In this document: positions 24,241 to 32,044 of the stretch, piece after piece
How positions within the stretch are numbered: position 1 is the first letter of the stretch
How the letters are laid out: every line of letters begins with the position of its first letter
From: Blastopirellula sediminis
Lineage (GTDB): Bacteria > Planctomycetota > Planctomycetia > Pirellulales > Pirellulaceae
Direction of reading: 5' to 3'
Length of the DNA: 64,000 nt
Assembly: GCF_020966755.1 (NCBI RefSeq)
Contig: NZ_JAJKFT010000010.1
Location: 3,374,720-3,438,719, forward strand
Notes under the pieces: generated by a model
Told to the model about the DNA's origin: nothing
Seen by the model: only the letters and a program-made list of their open reading frames with translations
The model's database searches: none
Made by a program: the position numbers and the translations under genes

Positions 24241-25515
24241 ATGGCCAAATTAATCCCCCTCAGCGAAGCAGCTCAAATCCTGGGCATCTCGGAAGAGCAG
24301 CTGGTCGAAATGCGATCACGCAACGAGATCCACGGATATCGCGATGGGGCGAGCTGGAAATTCAAAGAAACCGAAATCGAACGGATCAAATCCGAGCTCG
24401 CTTCGGGCGGTCTTTCCAGCCACGGCGACAGCGGTGAAGATCTGATCGAATCCCCCAGCGACTCCGATGACGACAGCGAATTCGAATTGTCGCTCGGCGG
24501 CGATGACGGTTCGTCGGGCGAAATCGATTCGCTCCTCGTTCAAGACGAAGGTCGCAGCGGCGAGTCGGGGATTATCATCGGCGATGAGCTTTCTGTCGGC
24601 GGTAGCGACCTGAAGCTGGCTGATAGCGATATCGAGCTCGGCTTTGAAGGTTCCAGCGCCATTGATCCTGCTTCGGACACGAACAGCAACCTGAACCTCG
24701 ATCTGGAAGGTTCGGACGTTCTCAACAGCTCGTCGATCAACGTTCCGGTTGACGCCGAAGACGATGACGATGAGTTGCTTCTGGCTCCGATGGACAAAGA
24801 TGACGTCGGTATCGGCACTGAAAAACGAGATCCCGAAGGGACCGGCTCGGGCGTCAGCCTGGCGTTGGGCGAAGACGATCTCGACCTGGGCGAAAGTGCG
24901 ATTTCGGCGATCGACGATCTCGATAGCGGCGAATTGACCCTCGATGCCGGCGACAGCGGCGTGAGTCTGGTCGATCCGGCCGACAGCGGCATCGACATCG
25001 GCATGGAACCGTTGGATCTTTCCGGCTCGAAGGTCGACGCCTTCGACCTGGCCGGCGATTCGGGCGTCGAAGTCGATCAAGACATCGCTTCCGGCCTTTC
25101 GGCCAAGGGCGCCGGCGAAGACGACTTCCTGCTCACCCCGGTCGAAGGGGAGCTGGATGACGACGACAGCGGTTCGCAGGTGATCGCGCTCGATTCGGAC
25201 TCGATTGGTTCGGAATCGGCGCTGTTCGGCAGCGGCATCGATGATGGCGATTTCGCCGCGGCGGAAGCTGGCTTGGAGCCGATCGACGATGGCGGCACGA
25301 TGGAGGTGACCTCCGCCGGCGTTCCTTCGGCGGCCGCTCCGGTGGAAGCTCCCTACAGCGTGCTGAACATCATCAGCCTGGCAGCGACGGCCGCCCTGGT
25401 ACTGGTCGCGGGCTTGATGGTGACCGACCTGGTTCGCAACATGTGGTCGTTCGATCAGCCGTACGCGATCAACAGCTCGATTATGGACGGGATCATCAGC
25501 TTGATGGGGGTCTAA
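24241..25515 (+). CDS. Excisionase/MerR-type HTH protein with acidic linker and C-terminal membrane helix
   Basis: Residues about 4-53 form a winged-HTH of the excisionase/MerR type (LSEAAQILGISEEQLVEMRSRNEI, then GYRDGASWKFKETEIERI). Residues 60-355 are highly acidic, rich in Asp, Ser, Gly and Leu, with repeated short DLDLG, DSGVSL and DSGIDIG-like units, and are probably disordered. A single membrane helix follows at about 377-400 (IISLAATAALVLVAGLMVTDL). The DNA-binding domain is predicted to be cytoplasmic and tethered to the membrane. It resembles proteins annotated in planctomycetes as excisionase-family DNA-binding proteins, whose targets are unknown. A strong terminator follows. Length 424 residues. 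Confidence 0.75.
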   Translation: MAKLIPLSEAAQILGISEEQLVEMRSRNEIHGYRDGASWKFKETEIERIKSELASGGLSSHGDSGEDLIESPSDSDDDSEFELSLGGDDGSSGEIDSLLVQDEGRSGESGIIIGDELSVGGSDLKLADSDIELGFEGSSAIDPASDTNSNLNLDLEGSDVLNSSSINVPVDAEDDDDELLLAPMDKDDVGIGTEKRDPEGTGSGVSLALGEDDLDLGESAISAIDDLDSGELTLDAGDSGVSLVDPADSGIDIGMEPLDLSGSKVDAFDLAGDSGVEVDQDIASGLSAKGAGEDDFLLTPVEGELDDDDSGSQVIALDSDSIGSESALFGSGIDDGDFAAAEAGLEPIDDGGTMEVTSAGVPSAAAPVEAPYSVLNIISLAATAALVLVAGLMVTDLVRNMWSFDQPYAINSSIMDGIISLMGV

Positions 25516-25849: not shown

Positions 25850-28800
25850 ATGGCTCGACCGAAACTGGCCTCCTCTGACCAAAATCTTTTCGTCTGGGGA
25901 GTGTTGCGTCTGTACGAAATCGCCGCGTCCCTGCAACTGGCGGTGATCTTGCTGTTTGGGATGGCGCTGACCCTGGGGATCGCGACGGCGGTCGAAGCGG
26001 CGTTTAACACCAACGTGGTGCAGTTTTACGTTTATCAGTCGTGGTGGTTCTCGCTCCTCTACGTGCTGTTGGCGATCAACATCTTCTGCGCCGCCGCAAT
26101 TCGCTTTCCTTGGAAGCGTCATCAGACTGGTTTTGTGATCACGCACATCGGCCTGTTGGTTTTGCTCTTCAGCGGGGTCGTCAGTCGGGTCTGGCGAATC
26201 GACTCGCAAGTGAGCGTTTGGGAAAACAACGTCTCGGACATCCGCGCGTTTGAGCCGGATCATTACCGCTTCGCGCTGCGGATCGATCGTCAAATCGGCT
26301 CGCCGCTTGATCCGGCGGAGAGCGTCGAAGTCGACATCCCGTTCAAGCCGGGCCCGTTCAGCTGGGACGACTATCAAGAAGGCTTTCAAAACATCGAAGT
26401 CGCGAAGCCGGAAGTGGCGAATCTCTTTTCGCCGTTGTTCTATCTGGCCAGCCGAAATCACAAGGGAGACGTCGTTTACGCCGATGGCGACATCAAGCTC
26501 GAAGTCCTCGACTATTACGGCGACAGCCATTGGGAAGATGGGATTCCGTCGGTTGAAATGCGTTTGAGCATGCCGGCCGGGCGAAAGATGGACGCCAATG
26601 GCCAGATGGTCGCTGGCGACATGCAATGGGTTCCGGTCAAGCTCGGCGTGCATGAGGTCGACGGCGATACGCAATACAAGTTTGGCGTGGGAGATCGGCA
26701 GCCGATGGGCGCCGGGGCGTTCACGATGGCGATCGCTCCTGATCGCGCGGCGACGGTCGCCTTCCTGGAAGGTGGGCCGAAGGGTGAGATCGGCGAGAAG
26801 GGACAAGCGGTTCTCTTCGCCGGCGGCAAACGTTTTGAAATCAACATTGCCGAAGCGATCGACAAGGATCCGACCCCGCTCGAAGGAACTCCCTACGCGT
26901 ACGAGGTAATCTCCTTCATGCCGTCGGCCGTTCCGAGCCGCAAACCGAACGGAGGCATCCTCTGGGGCGATGGCGAACAGAGCGAAGTCCCGCAGAACCC
27001 GACCGTTCGAATCGAATTGACCAAAGATGGTAAGCCGTACGACGAGCTGGTCCTGCTCGCCGATATGCCGAACTTCAACGCTCAAGCCTACGACGCCGAA
27101 GTCTACGGTTCGTACTGGTTTAATCATGGCGAAAGAGACGCCGCTCAACTATTGCAAGCGAGCGGCCCTGGCGGTTCGCGGATCGACGTGATCCAAGGGG
27201 TCGACAAGGATGGCGAAACGAAGCGGCTCTTCTATCGCTACTGGAATCGAAAGGAAGTGGTCGCGTCGGGCGAATTGCCGCTTGGCGGCGGCAAAGAAGA
27301 GGCGGTCGACGCCTTCAAGATGCCGATCGCGCAGCTGAAGATGTACGTTGAGAGCTACGTCCCGGCCGACAAACCTTCGTCGACCGCGGTTCGCGATCCG
27401 TTCAATCCCAAGATGCAAATGCCGACTCCGGCGGCGCTGGTCCGATTGACCAAGGGAGACATGTCGGACGAGTTCTGGATTCAGGCTCACTTCGGCGATC
27501 CGAACGCCGGCCATGTCGACGAGAGCACAAAGCACGTGATGAAGGTCGGCGATACGACGCTGACCTTGGCGATGCCAATTGAGTCGTACGACATCGGCTT
27601 CCGCATCTTCCTCGAAAAGTTTGAGCGTCGTCTCGATCCCGGCACCGCGCAGCCGTCGCACTATTCCAGCGACGTCCACTATGTCGATCGCGTCCGTGAT
27701 CGTTGGCTGATGATCTGGGACCCGGCCACGAGCAGCACGAAGCGAGTTGAGTTTCCGTTGACGATCGACAGCAACTCGCCGAGCGACATCGCCAGCGGCG
27801 ACGGTCAGATCTATTGGGTCGACAACGGTTCGCCGGCGGCGATCTGGAGCATGCCGATCGCCGCGCTCGAGTCAGGCGACTTCGAGCAAGCGAAGAAGAT
27901 CATTCCGTTCGGTTTGAACAACCCGCAACAGATCGCGTGCGATGCGAAGGGTGGCAAGCTCTACTGGACCGATTGGCGCAAAGGACGTTCCGGCGACGAG
28001 GGGGTGATTCGCAGCGCCAATCTCGACGGTTCGGCCCCGGGAAGCGTGATGACGTTTGCGGGACGACCGAGCGGAATCGCCATCGATAACGAGCGCAATT
28101 GGATCTACTACACCAACGACGCCTCCGGTTACGTGGGGCGGATGCATTTGGATGGCACTGAGCTGACGCCCGATTGGGTCGCGATTCCCGAGGGACGCGC
28201 AACCGACGTCGTCGTTGATCCGGCGACCGGGAATGTCTACTGGACCGACCAGGCGAAGAACGTGATCCGGGGAGCGACGACCGACGGCAGCATGCTCGAC
28301 AAGGCGCCGTTCCTTGGCTCGGCAGGTAAGGGAATGCCGAACTCGCTGGCGATCAGCGACGACTATCTCTACTGGACCGACATTCAGCCGAATCCGAGCG
28401 ATCCGACCTCGCGCAAGCATTTGAGCGACCCGACCTTCGACCGGACCAAGCCGCGTGAAGTTTTGACCCGCGTCCGCCGAATCAAGCTCGACGGCGAGGG
28501 GAACGACGAGGACGTCGCGACCGAAATGGTCAAAGCTCCCCGTGGCGCCGCCCTGGTCGACGGCAAGCTGATGTGGACCCAGAGCGCCGTGATCAAAGAA
28601 AACGTCTGGATCACGATGAACGCGCCGGACGCGTTCCGCGATCCGACCTATCGCCGCGACTTGCACGTCTTCCAGGAAAGTTTCCAGGGGCCGTTCAAGC
28701 CGGGCTCGCCGCAATACGCTCAATTCTCCAAGACCGAACGGAACGACGAAGAAATCTACGCGTCGGTCTTTACCGTGAATCATGATCCCGGTTCGGCCCT

Positions 28801-28960
28801 CCGCTACTGGGGTTGTTTGTTGGTGATTCTGGGAATCGCCACGATGTTTTACATGCGGGCTTACTTTTTCAAGCCGCGCAAACGGGAAGAGTCGCCGGTT
28901 GACTCTCGCCGTCCTAACGCAGCAGAGACCAAGCTTACCGACATGGTCGGCAAGTCCTAG
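25850..28960 (+). CDS. ResB-like cytochrome c biogenesis protein with inserted YWTD beta-propeller
   Basis: System II cytochrome c maturation: ResB works with CcsA (next gene) to deliver haem to apocytochrome c. The N-terminus has membrane helices (about residues 25-45, 62-78 and 90-107) as in ResB. The periplasmic domain follows and its usual end (SSDVHYVDR ... ITMNAPDAFRDPTYRRDLHVFQESF) is split: about residues 615-918 between the two parts carry YWTD-type blades, seen as IYWVDNG, LYWTDWR, IYYTND, VYWTDQ, LYWTDI and LMWTQS. Then the last ResB helix comes (about 984-1003) and a short cytoplasmic tail. At 1036 residues it is about twice the usual ResB length. Nine bases separate it from the CcsA gene. 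Confidence 0.85.
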   Translation: MARPKLASSDQNLFVWGVLRLYEIAASLQLAVILLFGMALTLGIATAVEAAFNTNVVQFYVYQSWWFSLLYVLLAINIFCAAAIRFPWKRHQTGFVITHIGLLVLLFSGVVSRVWRIDSQVSVWENNVSDIRAFEPDHYRFALRIDRQIGSPLDPAESVEVDIPFKPGPFSWDDYQEGFQNIEVAKPEVANLFSPLFYLASRNHKGDVVYADGDIKLEVLDYYGDSHWEDGIPSVEMRLSMPAGRKMDANGQMVAGDMQWVPVKLGVHEVDGDTQYKFGVGDRQPMGAGAFTMAIAPDRAATVAFLEGGPKGEIGEKGQAVLFAGGKRFEINIAEAIDKDPTPLEGTPYAYEVISFMPSAVPSRKPNGGILWGDGEQSEVPQNPTVRIELTKDGKPYDELVLLADMPNFNAQAYDAEVYGSYWFNHGERDAAQLLQASGPGGSRIDVIQGVDKDGETKRLFYRYWNRKEVVASGELPLGGGKEEAVDAFKMPIAQLKMYVESYVPADKPSSTAVRDPFNPKMQMPTPAALVRLTKGDMSDEFWIQAHFGDPNAGHVDESTKHVMKVGDTTLTLAMPIESYDIGFRIFLEKFERRLDPGTAQPSHYSSDVHYVDRVRDRWLMIWDPATSSTKRVEFPLTIDSNSPSDIASGDGQIYWVDNGSPAAIWSMPIAALESGDFEQAKKIIPFGLNNPQQIACDAKGGKLYWTDWRKGRSGDEGVIRSANLDGSAPGSVMTFAGRPSGIAIDNERNWIYYTNDASGYVGRMHLDGTELTPDWVAIPEGRATDVVVDPATGNVYWTDQAKNVIRGATTDGSMLDKAPFLGSAGKGMPNSLAISDDYLYWTDIQPNPSDPTSRKHLSDPTFDRTKPREVLTRVRRIKLDGEGNDEDVATEMVKAPRGAALVDGKLMWTQSAVIKENVWITMNAPDAFRDPTYRRDLHVFQESFQGPFKPGSPQYAQFSKTERNDEEIYASVFTVNHDPGSALRYWGCLLVILGIATMFYMRAYFFKPRKREESPVDSRRPNAAETKLTDMVGKS

Positions 28961-28969
28961 GAAGATGCC

Positions 28970-31900
28970 ATGAAGTCGATTCGCCCCCTACTCTCGGCCG
29001 TCAGTCTTGCGCTGGTCGCCCTGTGGTTCGCCCCTGTCGTCGCCGCCGAAAAGTTTGATGCGACGATCTGGAAAGAACTGCCGGTCTATCACAACGGTCG
29101 CGTGAAGCCGCTGGATACGTTGGCCAACCTCGTGGTGGAAGAGATCACTTCGCACGACAAAACGTCGGTGAAGTTGAATCTGAACGACTACTACGTGATG
29201 GACGAGCTGATCAAGTCCGATTACTCCGGCGCGATGTCGATCTTGCCGGAAGGAAAGGAACGGAAGTTCCAGCCGTCCGAATTGCTGCTTAGCTGGTTGG
29301 CCGAACCGCAAAAGTGGGAACGCGTTCCCTTTATCATTGCCGAGCATGAAGACGTGCGCAAGGCGCTTGGGCTGCAAGTGAACGGTCCGTCCGGCAAGCG
29401 ACTCCGTTTCGTCTCGCCGTACGAAATCACCCACTCGGTCGCGCTCCGCAAGTTCCTGCTCGAGATCGATACGCGTCGCAAGGCGGAAGGAAAAGACTTC
29501 GCCATGACGCCGGCGGAAGAGAAAGTGTGGGACGTGCTGATGAAGTACGCGCTCTACCGCGACGTGACGTTTGATCCTCGCTTGTCGATTACGCTGAACG
29601 AAGCGATGCCGATGCCCGGCGGACGCGATCGCTTGTTCTACAGCGTGATGGCCGCCGCGAAGGTGATGTCGCAAGAGCCGAACGTCAAGAATCAAACGCT
29701 CGAAGATCAATTTCAGATGCTGATGCAGCTCGGCGGCGAATCGCCGATGGCCCTCTCCGCCAACCGGCTGCTCACTTCGTATCGCGCCTTGTTCTCGATG
29801 CTGGTCAACGCTCAGATCGACGCGCACGAGTTTTTGGAAAACACCAATGAGGATCCGCTGCAGCCGGAAGATCCGCCGACTCTGGCCGAAGTCGAGCCGC
29901 TGGTCGCCGACTTCCGCGCTTCGGCTCACGAGCTGGCCGAGTTGCTCCGAACCGAACGCGATCGGGCCGATACGCAGCAGACGCTAAGTCGTTCGCAGTA
30001 CGAGACGATCAAGCCGATGTTCCAGGAAATGCTGGTGAAGACGAGCGAGCTCGATCGACTCGGCCTCGAAATGCAGCTGGGCCTGTATGAAGGTTCGGAC
30101 CTGGTCAAAAAGTTCAACCGCAACCTCACCGGCACGCTTTACGTGGCGCCGGCCCTGAACGCCGCGGCGCTGAAGAAAGATCGCGACACCGAAAACATGG
30201 CTCAGCCGTGGCTCGGTTTGACGACCATCCTGTATGGCTCCGGCGAAGTGCTGAAAGGATATCCGCAAGACAAGATCAATCAGGTCAAAGCGGCCTGGAA
30301 GAACCTGGCCAGCGAATACGTCGCCGGCGAGCCGACCGAAGAGGCGCAGGTGCAATTGGCCGCCGCACTCCGTTCGATCGGCGAACAGACCGACGTTGCA
30401 CGTCGCAAACTGGTCGCGGAAGATCAGCAGGACGAACATATCCTCGCCTATACCGCCTATCCGCCGGCCGACAGCCCGCGGATCGCGGCCGAAGTTCGCT
30501 ACAACGCGCTCGACCCGTTCATGATCGCCTGGATCATCTGTTTGGGCGCCACGCTCTGCTATTCCCTCTCGTTCGGCGTCATGCGGAAGGTGATGTTCTG
30601 GTCGGGGACTGCACTCCTGGTGACGGCGATCGTCTGGTCGACCTATGCGTTTTATCTCCGCATCACGATTAGCGGCTGGGCGCCGGTGACCAACATGTAC
30701 GAGACGGTCGTCTTCGTGCCGTGGGTCGTCGCCGTTTTGGGCGCGGCGTTCTTGCTGTTGCCGCTGATCGATCGGGGGCGACTTGAAGCGTGGCGTGCAA
30801 CGGCATGTCCTGGCACTCCGGAAGCGACTCCGCTGACCGCAAGCCAACTCGAAACGCAAGGAGCGTCGGCTTGGAACGTGATGGGAATCGTCGCCTCGGT
30901 GACTCGCATTCCGCTGATGGTCCTCACCGTCTGGATGTTGGCCTTCGCACTCTACAGCGACGGCAATCGTCCGATCATTTCCGACCTGAACCCACTGACC
31001 GCTTTCACGCTGTCGTCCAACGTTGGAAAAGACGCCGCGATCTGGCTGGTGAAGATGCTGACGTTGTTGATCACCGTCTACTTTGTGCCGCGACTGCTGG
31101 CGAGCAGCTTGTATGCGGTCTACTTCATCCCGCGGGATTGGTTGGTGAATCGGAGCATTTCGACCAGTCTGCCGGCGGTGCTGGAACGTTCGTACTTTGG
31201 CCTGGCCGCCTCGGGCGCCGCGACCTTCTTCTTCTGCGTCGCGTCGTTCGCCCCGGTGCTGGACGAGAACTTCTCGCCGCTGCAGCCGGTGTTGCGCTCG
31301 AATATGTGGCTCACGGTGCACGTGCTGACGATCGTCGCCAGCTACGGCGCTGGGATGTTGTCATGGGCGCTCGGCGTGATCGCCTTGTTCTTCTACATGT
31401 TCGGCAAGTATCGTCCGCCGGTTGATCCGGTGAATACTCCGGACGGTTTCCGTCCGGCTCATCAGGCGCAAGCGGAACTCGGCTATCGTCCGCCGGAACA
31501 GTGCGCCATCTTGGCTGGTTACTGCTACCGCGCGATTCAGGTCTCGGTGTTGCTCTTGGCGACCGGGACGATCTTGGGCGGTCTGTGGGCTGACGTCTCT
31601 TGGGGACGTTTCTGGGGTTGGGACCCGAAAGAAGTTTGGGCTTTGATCTCGCTGTTGGTTTACTTGGCGATTTTGCACGGCCGCTTCGCCGGCTGGTTCA
31701 ACAACTTCGGCCTGGTCGTCGGGACGATTCTCGGTTTCACGATGATCGTCTTCTCGTGGTATGGAGTGAACTTCCTGCTGCCGATGTTCAGCGGCGGTCA
31801 GGCGGTTGGTCTCCACTCGTACGGCTTCGGCGAAGGGGGTCAGGGATACGTCCTCGGCTTCGTCGCGCTAAACCTGGTTTACCTCGGCCTCGCCGCGGTT

Positions 31901-32044
31901 CGTTTCCAGGTGACCAACGTCGTCAAACCGGCGACGCACCAGACCGACAACGTCTCGCGTCTCGTGGAGGACGATGAAGAGATGGTCATCGCCGAGTCGT
32001 CCGATTCCAAGTCGGAAGAAGAAACCGAAGAAGTCTCGAAGTAG
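28970..32044 (+). CDS. ccsA: CcsA/CcmC-family cytochrome c biogenesis protein with large N-terminal domain
   Basis: Haem-handling partner of ResB in system II. The N-terminal 25 residues are a signal or anchor. Residues about 30-510 are a long extracytoplasmic region beginning KFDATIWKELPVYHNGRVKPLDTLA; similar GRxKPLDTLA openings occur in large CcsA-type proteins of other phyla. From about residue 515 there are repeated membrane helices. The haem-presenting WWD region is at 878-890 (WGRFWGWDPKEVW), and candidate haem-ligating His are in LTVHVLTIVASYG (about 783) and ILHGR (about 903). The C-terminus is acidic. It starts 9 bases after the ResB-like stop and probably forms a complex with it. 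Confidence 0.9.
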   Translation: MKSIRPLLSAVSLALVALWFAPVVAAEKFDATIWKELPVYHNGRVKPLDTLANLVVEEITSHDKTSVKLNLNDYYVMDELIKSDYSGAMSILPEGKERKFQPSELLLSWLAEPQKWERVPFIIAEHEDVRKALGLQVNGPSGKRLRFVSPYEITHSVALRKFLLEIDTRRKAEGKDFAMTPAEEKVWDVLMKYALYRDVTFDPRLSITLNEAMPMPGGRDRLFYSVMAAAKVMSQEPNVKNQTLEDQFQMLMQLGGESPMALSANRLLTSYRALFSMLVNAQIDAHEFLENTNEDPLQPEDPPTLAEVEPLVADFRASAHELAELLRTERDRADTQQTLSRSQYETIKPMFQEMLVKTSELDRLGLEMQLGLYEGSDLVKKFNRNLTGTLYVAPALNAAALKKDRDTENMAQPWLGLTTILYGSGEVLKGYPQDKINQVKAAWKNLASEYVAGEPTEEAQVQLAAALRSIGEQTDVARRKLVAEDQQDEHILAYTAYPPADSPRIAAEVRYNALDPFMIAWIICLGATLCYSLSFGVMRKVMFWSGTALLVTAIVWSTYAFYLRITISGWAPVTNMYETVVFVPWVVAVLGAAFLLLPLIDRGRLEAWRATACPGTPEATPLTASQLETQGASAWNVMGIVASVTRIPLMVLTVWMLAFALYSDGNRPIISDLNPLTAFTLSSNVGKDAAIWLVKMLTLLITVYFVPRLLASSLYAVYFIPRDWLVNRSISTSLPAVLERSYFGLAASGAATFFFCVASFAPVLDENFSPLQPVLRSNMWLTVHVLTIVASYGAGMLSWALGVIALFFYMFGKYRPPVDPVNTPDGFRPAHQAQAELGYRPPEQCAILAGYCYRAIQVSVLLLATGTILGGLWADVSWGRFWGWDPKEVWALISLLVYLAILHGRFAGWFNNFGLVVGTILGFTMIVFSWYGVNFLLPMFSGGQAVGLHSYGFGEGGQGYVLGFVALNLVYLGLAAVRFQVTNVVKPATHQTDNVSRLVEDDEEMVIAESSDSKSEEETEEVSK

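Follow-up and report, generated by a model that had tools for sequence, protein, structure and literature searches.

The window analysed here, a 64,000-nucleotide stretch of the Blastopirellula sediminis genome, contains a gene for a ResB/CcsB protein at positions 25850–28960 of the forward strand (stop codon included; 1036 aa) and, 9 bp downstream, the gene for a CcsA partner of 1024 aa with a large N-terminal periplasmic part (28970–32044, forward). The ResB gene is a single open frame that runs from start to stop without interruption. Its product matches the Pfam ResB family (PF05140) with an E-value of 9.1e-21 and a score of 74.6 bits against a curated cut-off of 24.6; the best stretch bridges residues 582–1003 onto profile positions 205–451. 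An NCBIfam search with the same protein gave no match. It is the only ResB match in the 7.05-Mb genome (10 contigs), and a protein of Blastopirellula marina DSM 3645, also a member of the Pirellulaceae, is 82% identical to it. The CcsA product matches Pfam Cytochrom_C_asm (3.6e-27) and contains WGRFWGWDPKE and GLHSY, and thus both the WWD motif and the periplasmic histidine of a CcsA; its score against NCBIfam TIGR03144 (132.9 bits) lies below the cut-off of 187.6.

Two further genes may be mentioned here. Upstream of the pair, positions 24241–25515 (forward) encode a protein that combines an excisionase-like HTH with a long run of acidic residues and a hydrophobic C-terminal region; ResB is accompanied by a match to this protein in 8 of 12 propeller-type loci and in 6 of 10 insert-less ones, the match being confined to the HTH in some cases. 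A second Cytochrom_C_asm protein is encoded elsewhere in the genome (G000:C10:445221-445787; 306-aa frame, 33.9 bits) and is, at a guess, HemX- or CcmC-like.

The N-terminal region of the ResB protein (residues 13–115; 25886–26194) is predicted to form three transmembrane helices and corresponds, by alignment and model helices, to residues 8–135 of Helicobacter hepaticus CcsBA (PDB 7s9y). The AlphaFold2 model places helices at residues 28–52, 65–84, 90–115 and 981–1006, in keeping with the ResB arrangement of three N-terminal membrane helices, the third with a conserved histidine, and one at the C-terminus. That histidine is the nearly invariant His99 (FVITH). Its role, and the membrane span of the helices, are assigned by analogy with the protein family. 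A large periplasmic β domain follows (residues ~116–560; 26195–27529), and is found also in insert-less relatives of the order. The β cap begins at residue 561, and its N-terminal part (residues 561–614; 27530–27691) includes Phe591, which opens the loop FERRLDPG, and then the first hairpin strand, SSDVHYVD. At this point the chain enters a six-bladed YWTD propeller (residues ~615–917; 27692–28600) that replaces the turn of 11–13 residues seen in 12 of the 14 insert-less sequences aligned. The second hairpin strand and the remaining cap (residues 918–980; 28601–28789), assigned from the alignment, the model and the 7s9y profile, lead into the fourth transmembrane helix (residues 981–1006; 28790–28867; alignment and model).

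Six residues beyond the propeller lies the sequence MNAP (residues 923–926; 28616–28627), identical in all 25 insert-bearing sequences of our alignment. It corresponds to the CcsB motif VNX1-4P, as defined in PMC4222556, with Met in place of Val; Asn924 and Pro926 are invariant in all 39 aligned sequences. By these features the window protein is a CcsB, belonging to a cytochrome c synthase of the System II type (CcsB–CcsA), with a YWTD propeller in the turn of its β-cap hairpin.

The insertion is best seen against its empty site. In an alignment of 39 ResB sequences, 25 with the insert and 14 insert-less from other families of the order, the segment bounded by anchor residues 612 and 919 spans 299–334 residues in the insert-bearing proteins (306 in the window) and 11–33 in all 14 others, 11–13 in 12 of them. 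The sequence flanking the site is alike in both groups. The uninterrupted β-cap hairpin of ResB is therefore absent from the window protein, and we treat hairpin length as a variable rather than a defining feature of the family. In the first-pass annotation, a propeller within the periplasmic domain of ResB had been read between residues 613 and 921, which agrees with the boundaries found here (~614/615 and ~917/918) and with the results of Pfam, phmmer, AlphaFold2 and Foldseek. Two alternative explanations can be dismissed. One is a frameshift or a pair of adjoining genes, excluded by the single open frame in the window and in full-length relatives; since the insert recurs in the genomes of relatives, it does not stem from an assembly error or frameshift particular to this genome. 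The other, that ResB proteins generally carry such an insert, is contradicted by every insert-less sequence in the alignment. A short hairpin was also read in 26 of 37 long ResB frames of the window's own family, which are described below.

The further statement that ResB normally runs through this point without a break is mostly correct; the exceptions are certain ResB proteins of other planctomycetes, in which the same hairpin anchors lie 44–78 residues apart instead of the usual 20–28. These are encoded at L170 and L298 (family f19), L273 and L279 (f18) and L167 (f2). The hairpin site has the look of a length hot spot.

The position of the insert relative to the known synthase structure was obtained by profile comparison. 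A profile of 16 propeller-less ResB sequences matches 7s9y in two stretches (E 5.4e-25) and a second solved chain, 25vk_A, with 2.3e-17. In this alignment, counted by hand, Phe591 corresponds to Phe240 of H. hepaticus CcsBA, with which the conserved cap loop starts; the site of insertion is the turn after SEVEVLD, at approximately residues 262–269 of 7s9y and some 22 residues past Phe240. Tyr245 of the H. hepaticus cap loop aligns with Asp596 and is not conserved in these ResB proteins. Section 10 of PMC10663686 proposes that the β cap occludes the active site of CcsA and leaves its role open between occlusion, substrate access and release. Since the hairpin leads at its other end into the cap loop, which covers the active site in H. 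hepaticus CcsBA, the propeller would stand on the active-site lid.

Evidence for the propeller fold comes from several kinds of comparison. A Pfam Ldl_recept_b repeat is recognized above its cut-off in one stretch (residues 702–746; 26.6 bits against 21). A phmmer search of the PDB matched 7s9y at residues 27–141 and the YWTD propellers of LRP2, LRP4, LRP6, nidogen and LDLR within residues ~630–847. The AlphaFold2 model of the whole protein (mean pLDDT 81.2, pTM 0.65; block means of 85–92 over most of residues 690–820) has a strand at 602–612, the propeller, and a returning strand at 914–922. Among the best 50 Foldseek matches listed for this model are the propellers of LRP6, LRP4, nidogen and LDLR; of the single-propeller targets, 3sob_B aligns with a target TM-score of 0.63 over 296 columns and 1npe_A with 0.73 over 293. 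The number of blades was counted from the DSSP string together with the YWTD-like strands, six in all, rather than from coordinates, and the closed six-bladed fold is likewise a prediction from strand pattern and Foldseek. For an insert-less relative (L019), the corresponding model (mean pLDDT 83.7) has strands at 574–584 and 592–600 joined by a short turn, and its only Foldseek matches at E ≤ 0.001 are the CcsBA structures 7s9y (E 3.2e-14) and 7s9z.

The 25 insert sequences contain no CXXCH motif, no conserved cysteine and no histidine column common to more than 10 of them, which argues against a fixed heme-ligating or thiol site within the insert. A heme-binding or thiol module is accordingly not supported as an account of this domain.

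Some match to the window protein was found in 51 of 241 genomes of its family, the Pirellulaceae. By hand tally, this type of ResB is present in 28 of the 241 genomes and 9 of 68 genera, and all 28 contain the insert sequence, in some cases split over contigs. Six other genomes of the family (G529, G493, G035, G536, G415 and G405) gave a weak match to a different, shorter ResB type, in which the two loci read (L121 and L122) leave no room for the insert. A ResB profile search found a match in 152 of the 170 family genomes that are at least 90% complete, and most of the matches listed are short and lie in frames of ~1190–1480 aa. The same search returned no ResB match for 14 of 22 propeller-bearing genomes (genus g2 and others), probably since the profile match is broken up by the insert; sequence divergence may contribute.

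The long frames represent a second form of the system. Among 40 family loci taken from this list (L068–L107), 38 have a ResB-matching frame of at least 1000 aa, L070 and L092 falling outside this count, and one of the 38 (L104) is of the propeller type. The other 37 include 35 with the CcsA motif WDPKE in the same frame; the hairpin is short in 26 and the CcsA loop described below measures 7 in 32, the remainder being unread by the patterns used. Many genera of the family thus have a diverged, fused CcsBA in place of the split ResB–CcsA pair, and the two types of System II seem to stand in for one another inside this family.

In a tree computed without the insert columns, the 25 insert-bearing sequences fall on one side of a single branch (support 100/99), which requires one change; the tree contains long branches, and its midpoint rooting serves display only. 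The distribution on this one branch suggests that the propeller was inserted once, at the tip of the β hairpin of the cap.

A search with the insert against 392 genomes of the phylum matched 30, and the loci examined from this search (L129–L151) contain no ResB match. The 24 related propeller frames listed are separate frames of 210–1122 aa, many with a signal-like start, and CXXCH is absent from all 24; two of them (L130 and L137) end, in our reading, in a tail resembling a sorting signal. Related proteins of this kind would fit an envelope anchor, with a propeller whose ligand is a component of the cell envelope or some protein that has nothing to do with cytochromes, and whose sole task is to position the complex. 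Such a role would make the location on the active-site lid a coincidence, and we regard it as very improbable. Two further ideas were considered and rejected. A recent duplication within the genome finds no counterpart, as there is no second YWTD match over the cut-off and the next-best match to the insert has an E-value of 0.33. A free-standing 'Rosetta stone' propeller beside ResB was sought in 10 neighbourhoods of insert-less relatives, each of 9–14.5 kb, and none was found at E ≤ 1.

The insert is under purifying selection, as judged from Nei–Gojobori estimates of omega. Within the window's genus (six pairs), omega is 0.089–0.153 for the insert, 0.093–0.135 for the N-terminal part and 0.054–0.110 for the C-terminal part. 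In genus g2, where calculable, it is 0.059–0.268 for the insert against 0.024–0.087 for the N-terminal part; in genus g23 most comparisons were saturated. Conservation is lowest in the insert (0.44), followed by the extra periplasmic domain (0.54), the cap (0.69–0.71) and the transmembrane helices (0.74–0.81). By the omega values, the propeller is kept, yet has more freedom to change than the remainder of the protein.

These figures bear on whether the propeller has any part in heme attachment at all. It could be a tolerated passenger, a self-folding domain that settled harmlessly in a permissive hairpin turn and is hard to remove precisely. Its standing as the least conserved part of the protein, the mostly structural look of its conserved positions and the additions to the same hairpin in other lineages, with 44–78 residues between the anchors, would all follow from such a history. 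A dispensable domain is harder to reconcile with its presence in every genome with this ResB type, across nine genera, with purifying selection about as strong as that on the N-terminal part in the window's genus, and with a change in CcsA that occurs in the same clade. We consider a passenger unlikely, while giving it real weight.

The change in CcsA concerns a loop between a conserved asparagine and a periplasmic histidine (N934–H949, GVNF...GLH; 31769–31816, forward), which measures 15 residues in the window. In an alignment of 12 propeller-type and 10 insert-less CcsA sequences, the Asn-to-His distance is 14–15 in 11 of the propeller-type sequences, the remaining one being truncated, and 8 in nine of the ten insert-less ones. 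The propeller clade has extra blocks behind GVNF (residues 938–942) and in the N-terminal domain (207–215, 231–237 and 283–300). A wider set of 70 loci, 62 of which were read by a pattern, gave 14–15 in 22 of 22 propeller-type sequences and 8 in 40 of 40 from other families of the order; one genome is counted twice in each group (G496 and G390, respectively), and ResB was read for only part of the 40. Of the eight loci missed by the pattern, six measure 7–8 by eye, L201 measures 8 and L239 is unread. In H. hepaticus CcsBA, PMC10663686 describes Asn890 as a conserved residue of the C1 pocket and P-His2 as the second periplasmic heme ligand. We equate the two ends of the loop with these residues by motif and position rather than by an alignment of CcsA with 7s9y.

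Outside the order, the loop is 8 residues in 24 of 30 loci, 7 in three, 15 in one and ~22 in two. The last two belong to family f19 (L170 and L298; genomes G029 and G278), in which hairpin (77–78) and loop (22, a corrected reading, as the first loop pattern had over-read both at 40) are longer together. A general coupling between the two lengths is borne out only in part. L272 (f22, G006) combines a 15-residue loop with a short hairpin of 20, and L273 (hairpin 74), L279 (44) and, within the order, L167 (44), from genomes G056 and G007 of f18 and G005 of f2, all have a loop of 8. The hairpin pattern, applied to 40 loci (L272–L311), returned nothing for 23, and its readings for L274, L300 and L310 were judged wrong; in most insert-bearing sequences it stops early inside the propeller, so insert lengths were taken from the 39-sequence alignment. 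Within the window's family, the joint change is one event in a single clade, and we treat the coupling as suggestive only.

The same CcsA features could reflect a structural brace, in which the propeller packs on CcsA, either on its N-terminal domain or on the lengthened loop, and holds the split CcsB–CcsA pair together without contacting substrate. The adjacency of the two genes and the clade-specific blocks and loop of CcsA are compatible with such a brace, as is the fusion of CcsB and CcsA, with its short hairpin and loop of 7, in many other members of the family. Against it, insert-less relatives also have CcsB and CcsA as separate proteins at 10 of 10 loci, nine of them in the order, and we judge a purely structural role to be rather improbable.

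Our preferred reading, held tentatively and at somewhat less than even confidence, is a CcsB whose once-inserted propeller sits on the lid of the cytochrome c synthase and acts there as a platform for binding or gating. The propeller would serve as a rigid, non-catalytic support to hold or orient whatever enters the site, be it an apocytochrome, its thiol reductant or the periplasmic domain of CcsA, and would thereby help to gate lid opening. The first-pass annotation had suggested that the propeller could bind the apocytochrome, a cytochrome partner or the N-terminal domain of CcsA, which we keep as a hypothesis. Contact with substrate or CcsA is plausible because the insert lies in the β cap over the CcsA active site and the CcsA loop is longer in the same clade. 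Retention of the insert wherever this ResB type occurs is consistent with a platform; the low conservation of the insert, its elevated omega in g2, the replacement of Tyr245 by Asp596 and the tolerance of the hairpin for additions elsewhere weigh against it. A bolder form of the platform hypothesis, in which lid insertion and lengthened CcsA loop form a new substrate-selecting or gating device of one Pirellulaceae clade, with the propeller choosing among apocytochromes, strikes us as doubtful.

Among the open-licence PMC papers listed in our searches, none names a propeller insert in ResB/CcsB in its listing; the longer Asn-to-His loop of CcsA in the propeller clade is a finding added by the present analysis. 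A large removable domain on the cap, with insert-less relatives as natural controls, makes the role of the β cap testable by deletion or transplantation of a single domain. For annotation, the loss of ResB profile matches is relevant too, as propeller-bearing genomes may be overlooked. A propeller retained next to the presumed lid may also reflect a novel mode of supplying or gating the assembly machine.

The insert shares its YWTD repeats and propeller fold with LRP6, LRP4, nidogen and LDLR, and differs from them in sitting within a membrane protein of cytochrome assembly. Among the genomes sampled, its best relatives outside the window's family are other YWTD-type proteins of Planctomycetota (for example L130 and L137), which in contrast are separate frames with no ResB match in their loci. 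As a precedent, DsbI of Campylobacter and Helicobacter is a periplasmic redox membrane protein that likewise bears a propeller, the role of which is given as unknown in PMC4460558. In DsbI, however, the propeller is added at the C-terminus of a DsbB-type protein instead of being inserted, and the protein is not a CcsB. Among the nearest known systems is the CcsB/ResB of System II, represented by H. hepaticus CcsBA (7s9y, 7s9z), which has in common with the window protein the N-terminal transmembrane region, the β cap, a VNX1-4P-type motif and the C-terminal transmembrane helix, whereas the window ResB is split from CcsA, has a larger periplasmic domain and carries a YWTD propeller in its β-cap hairpin.
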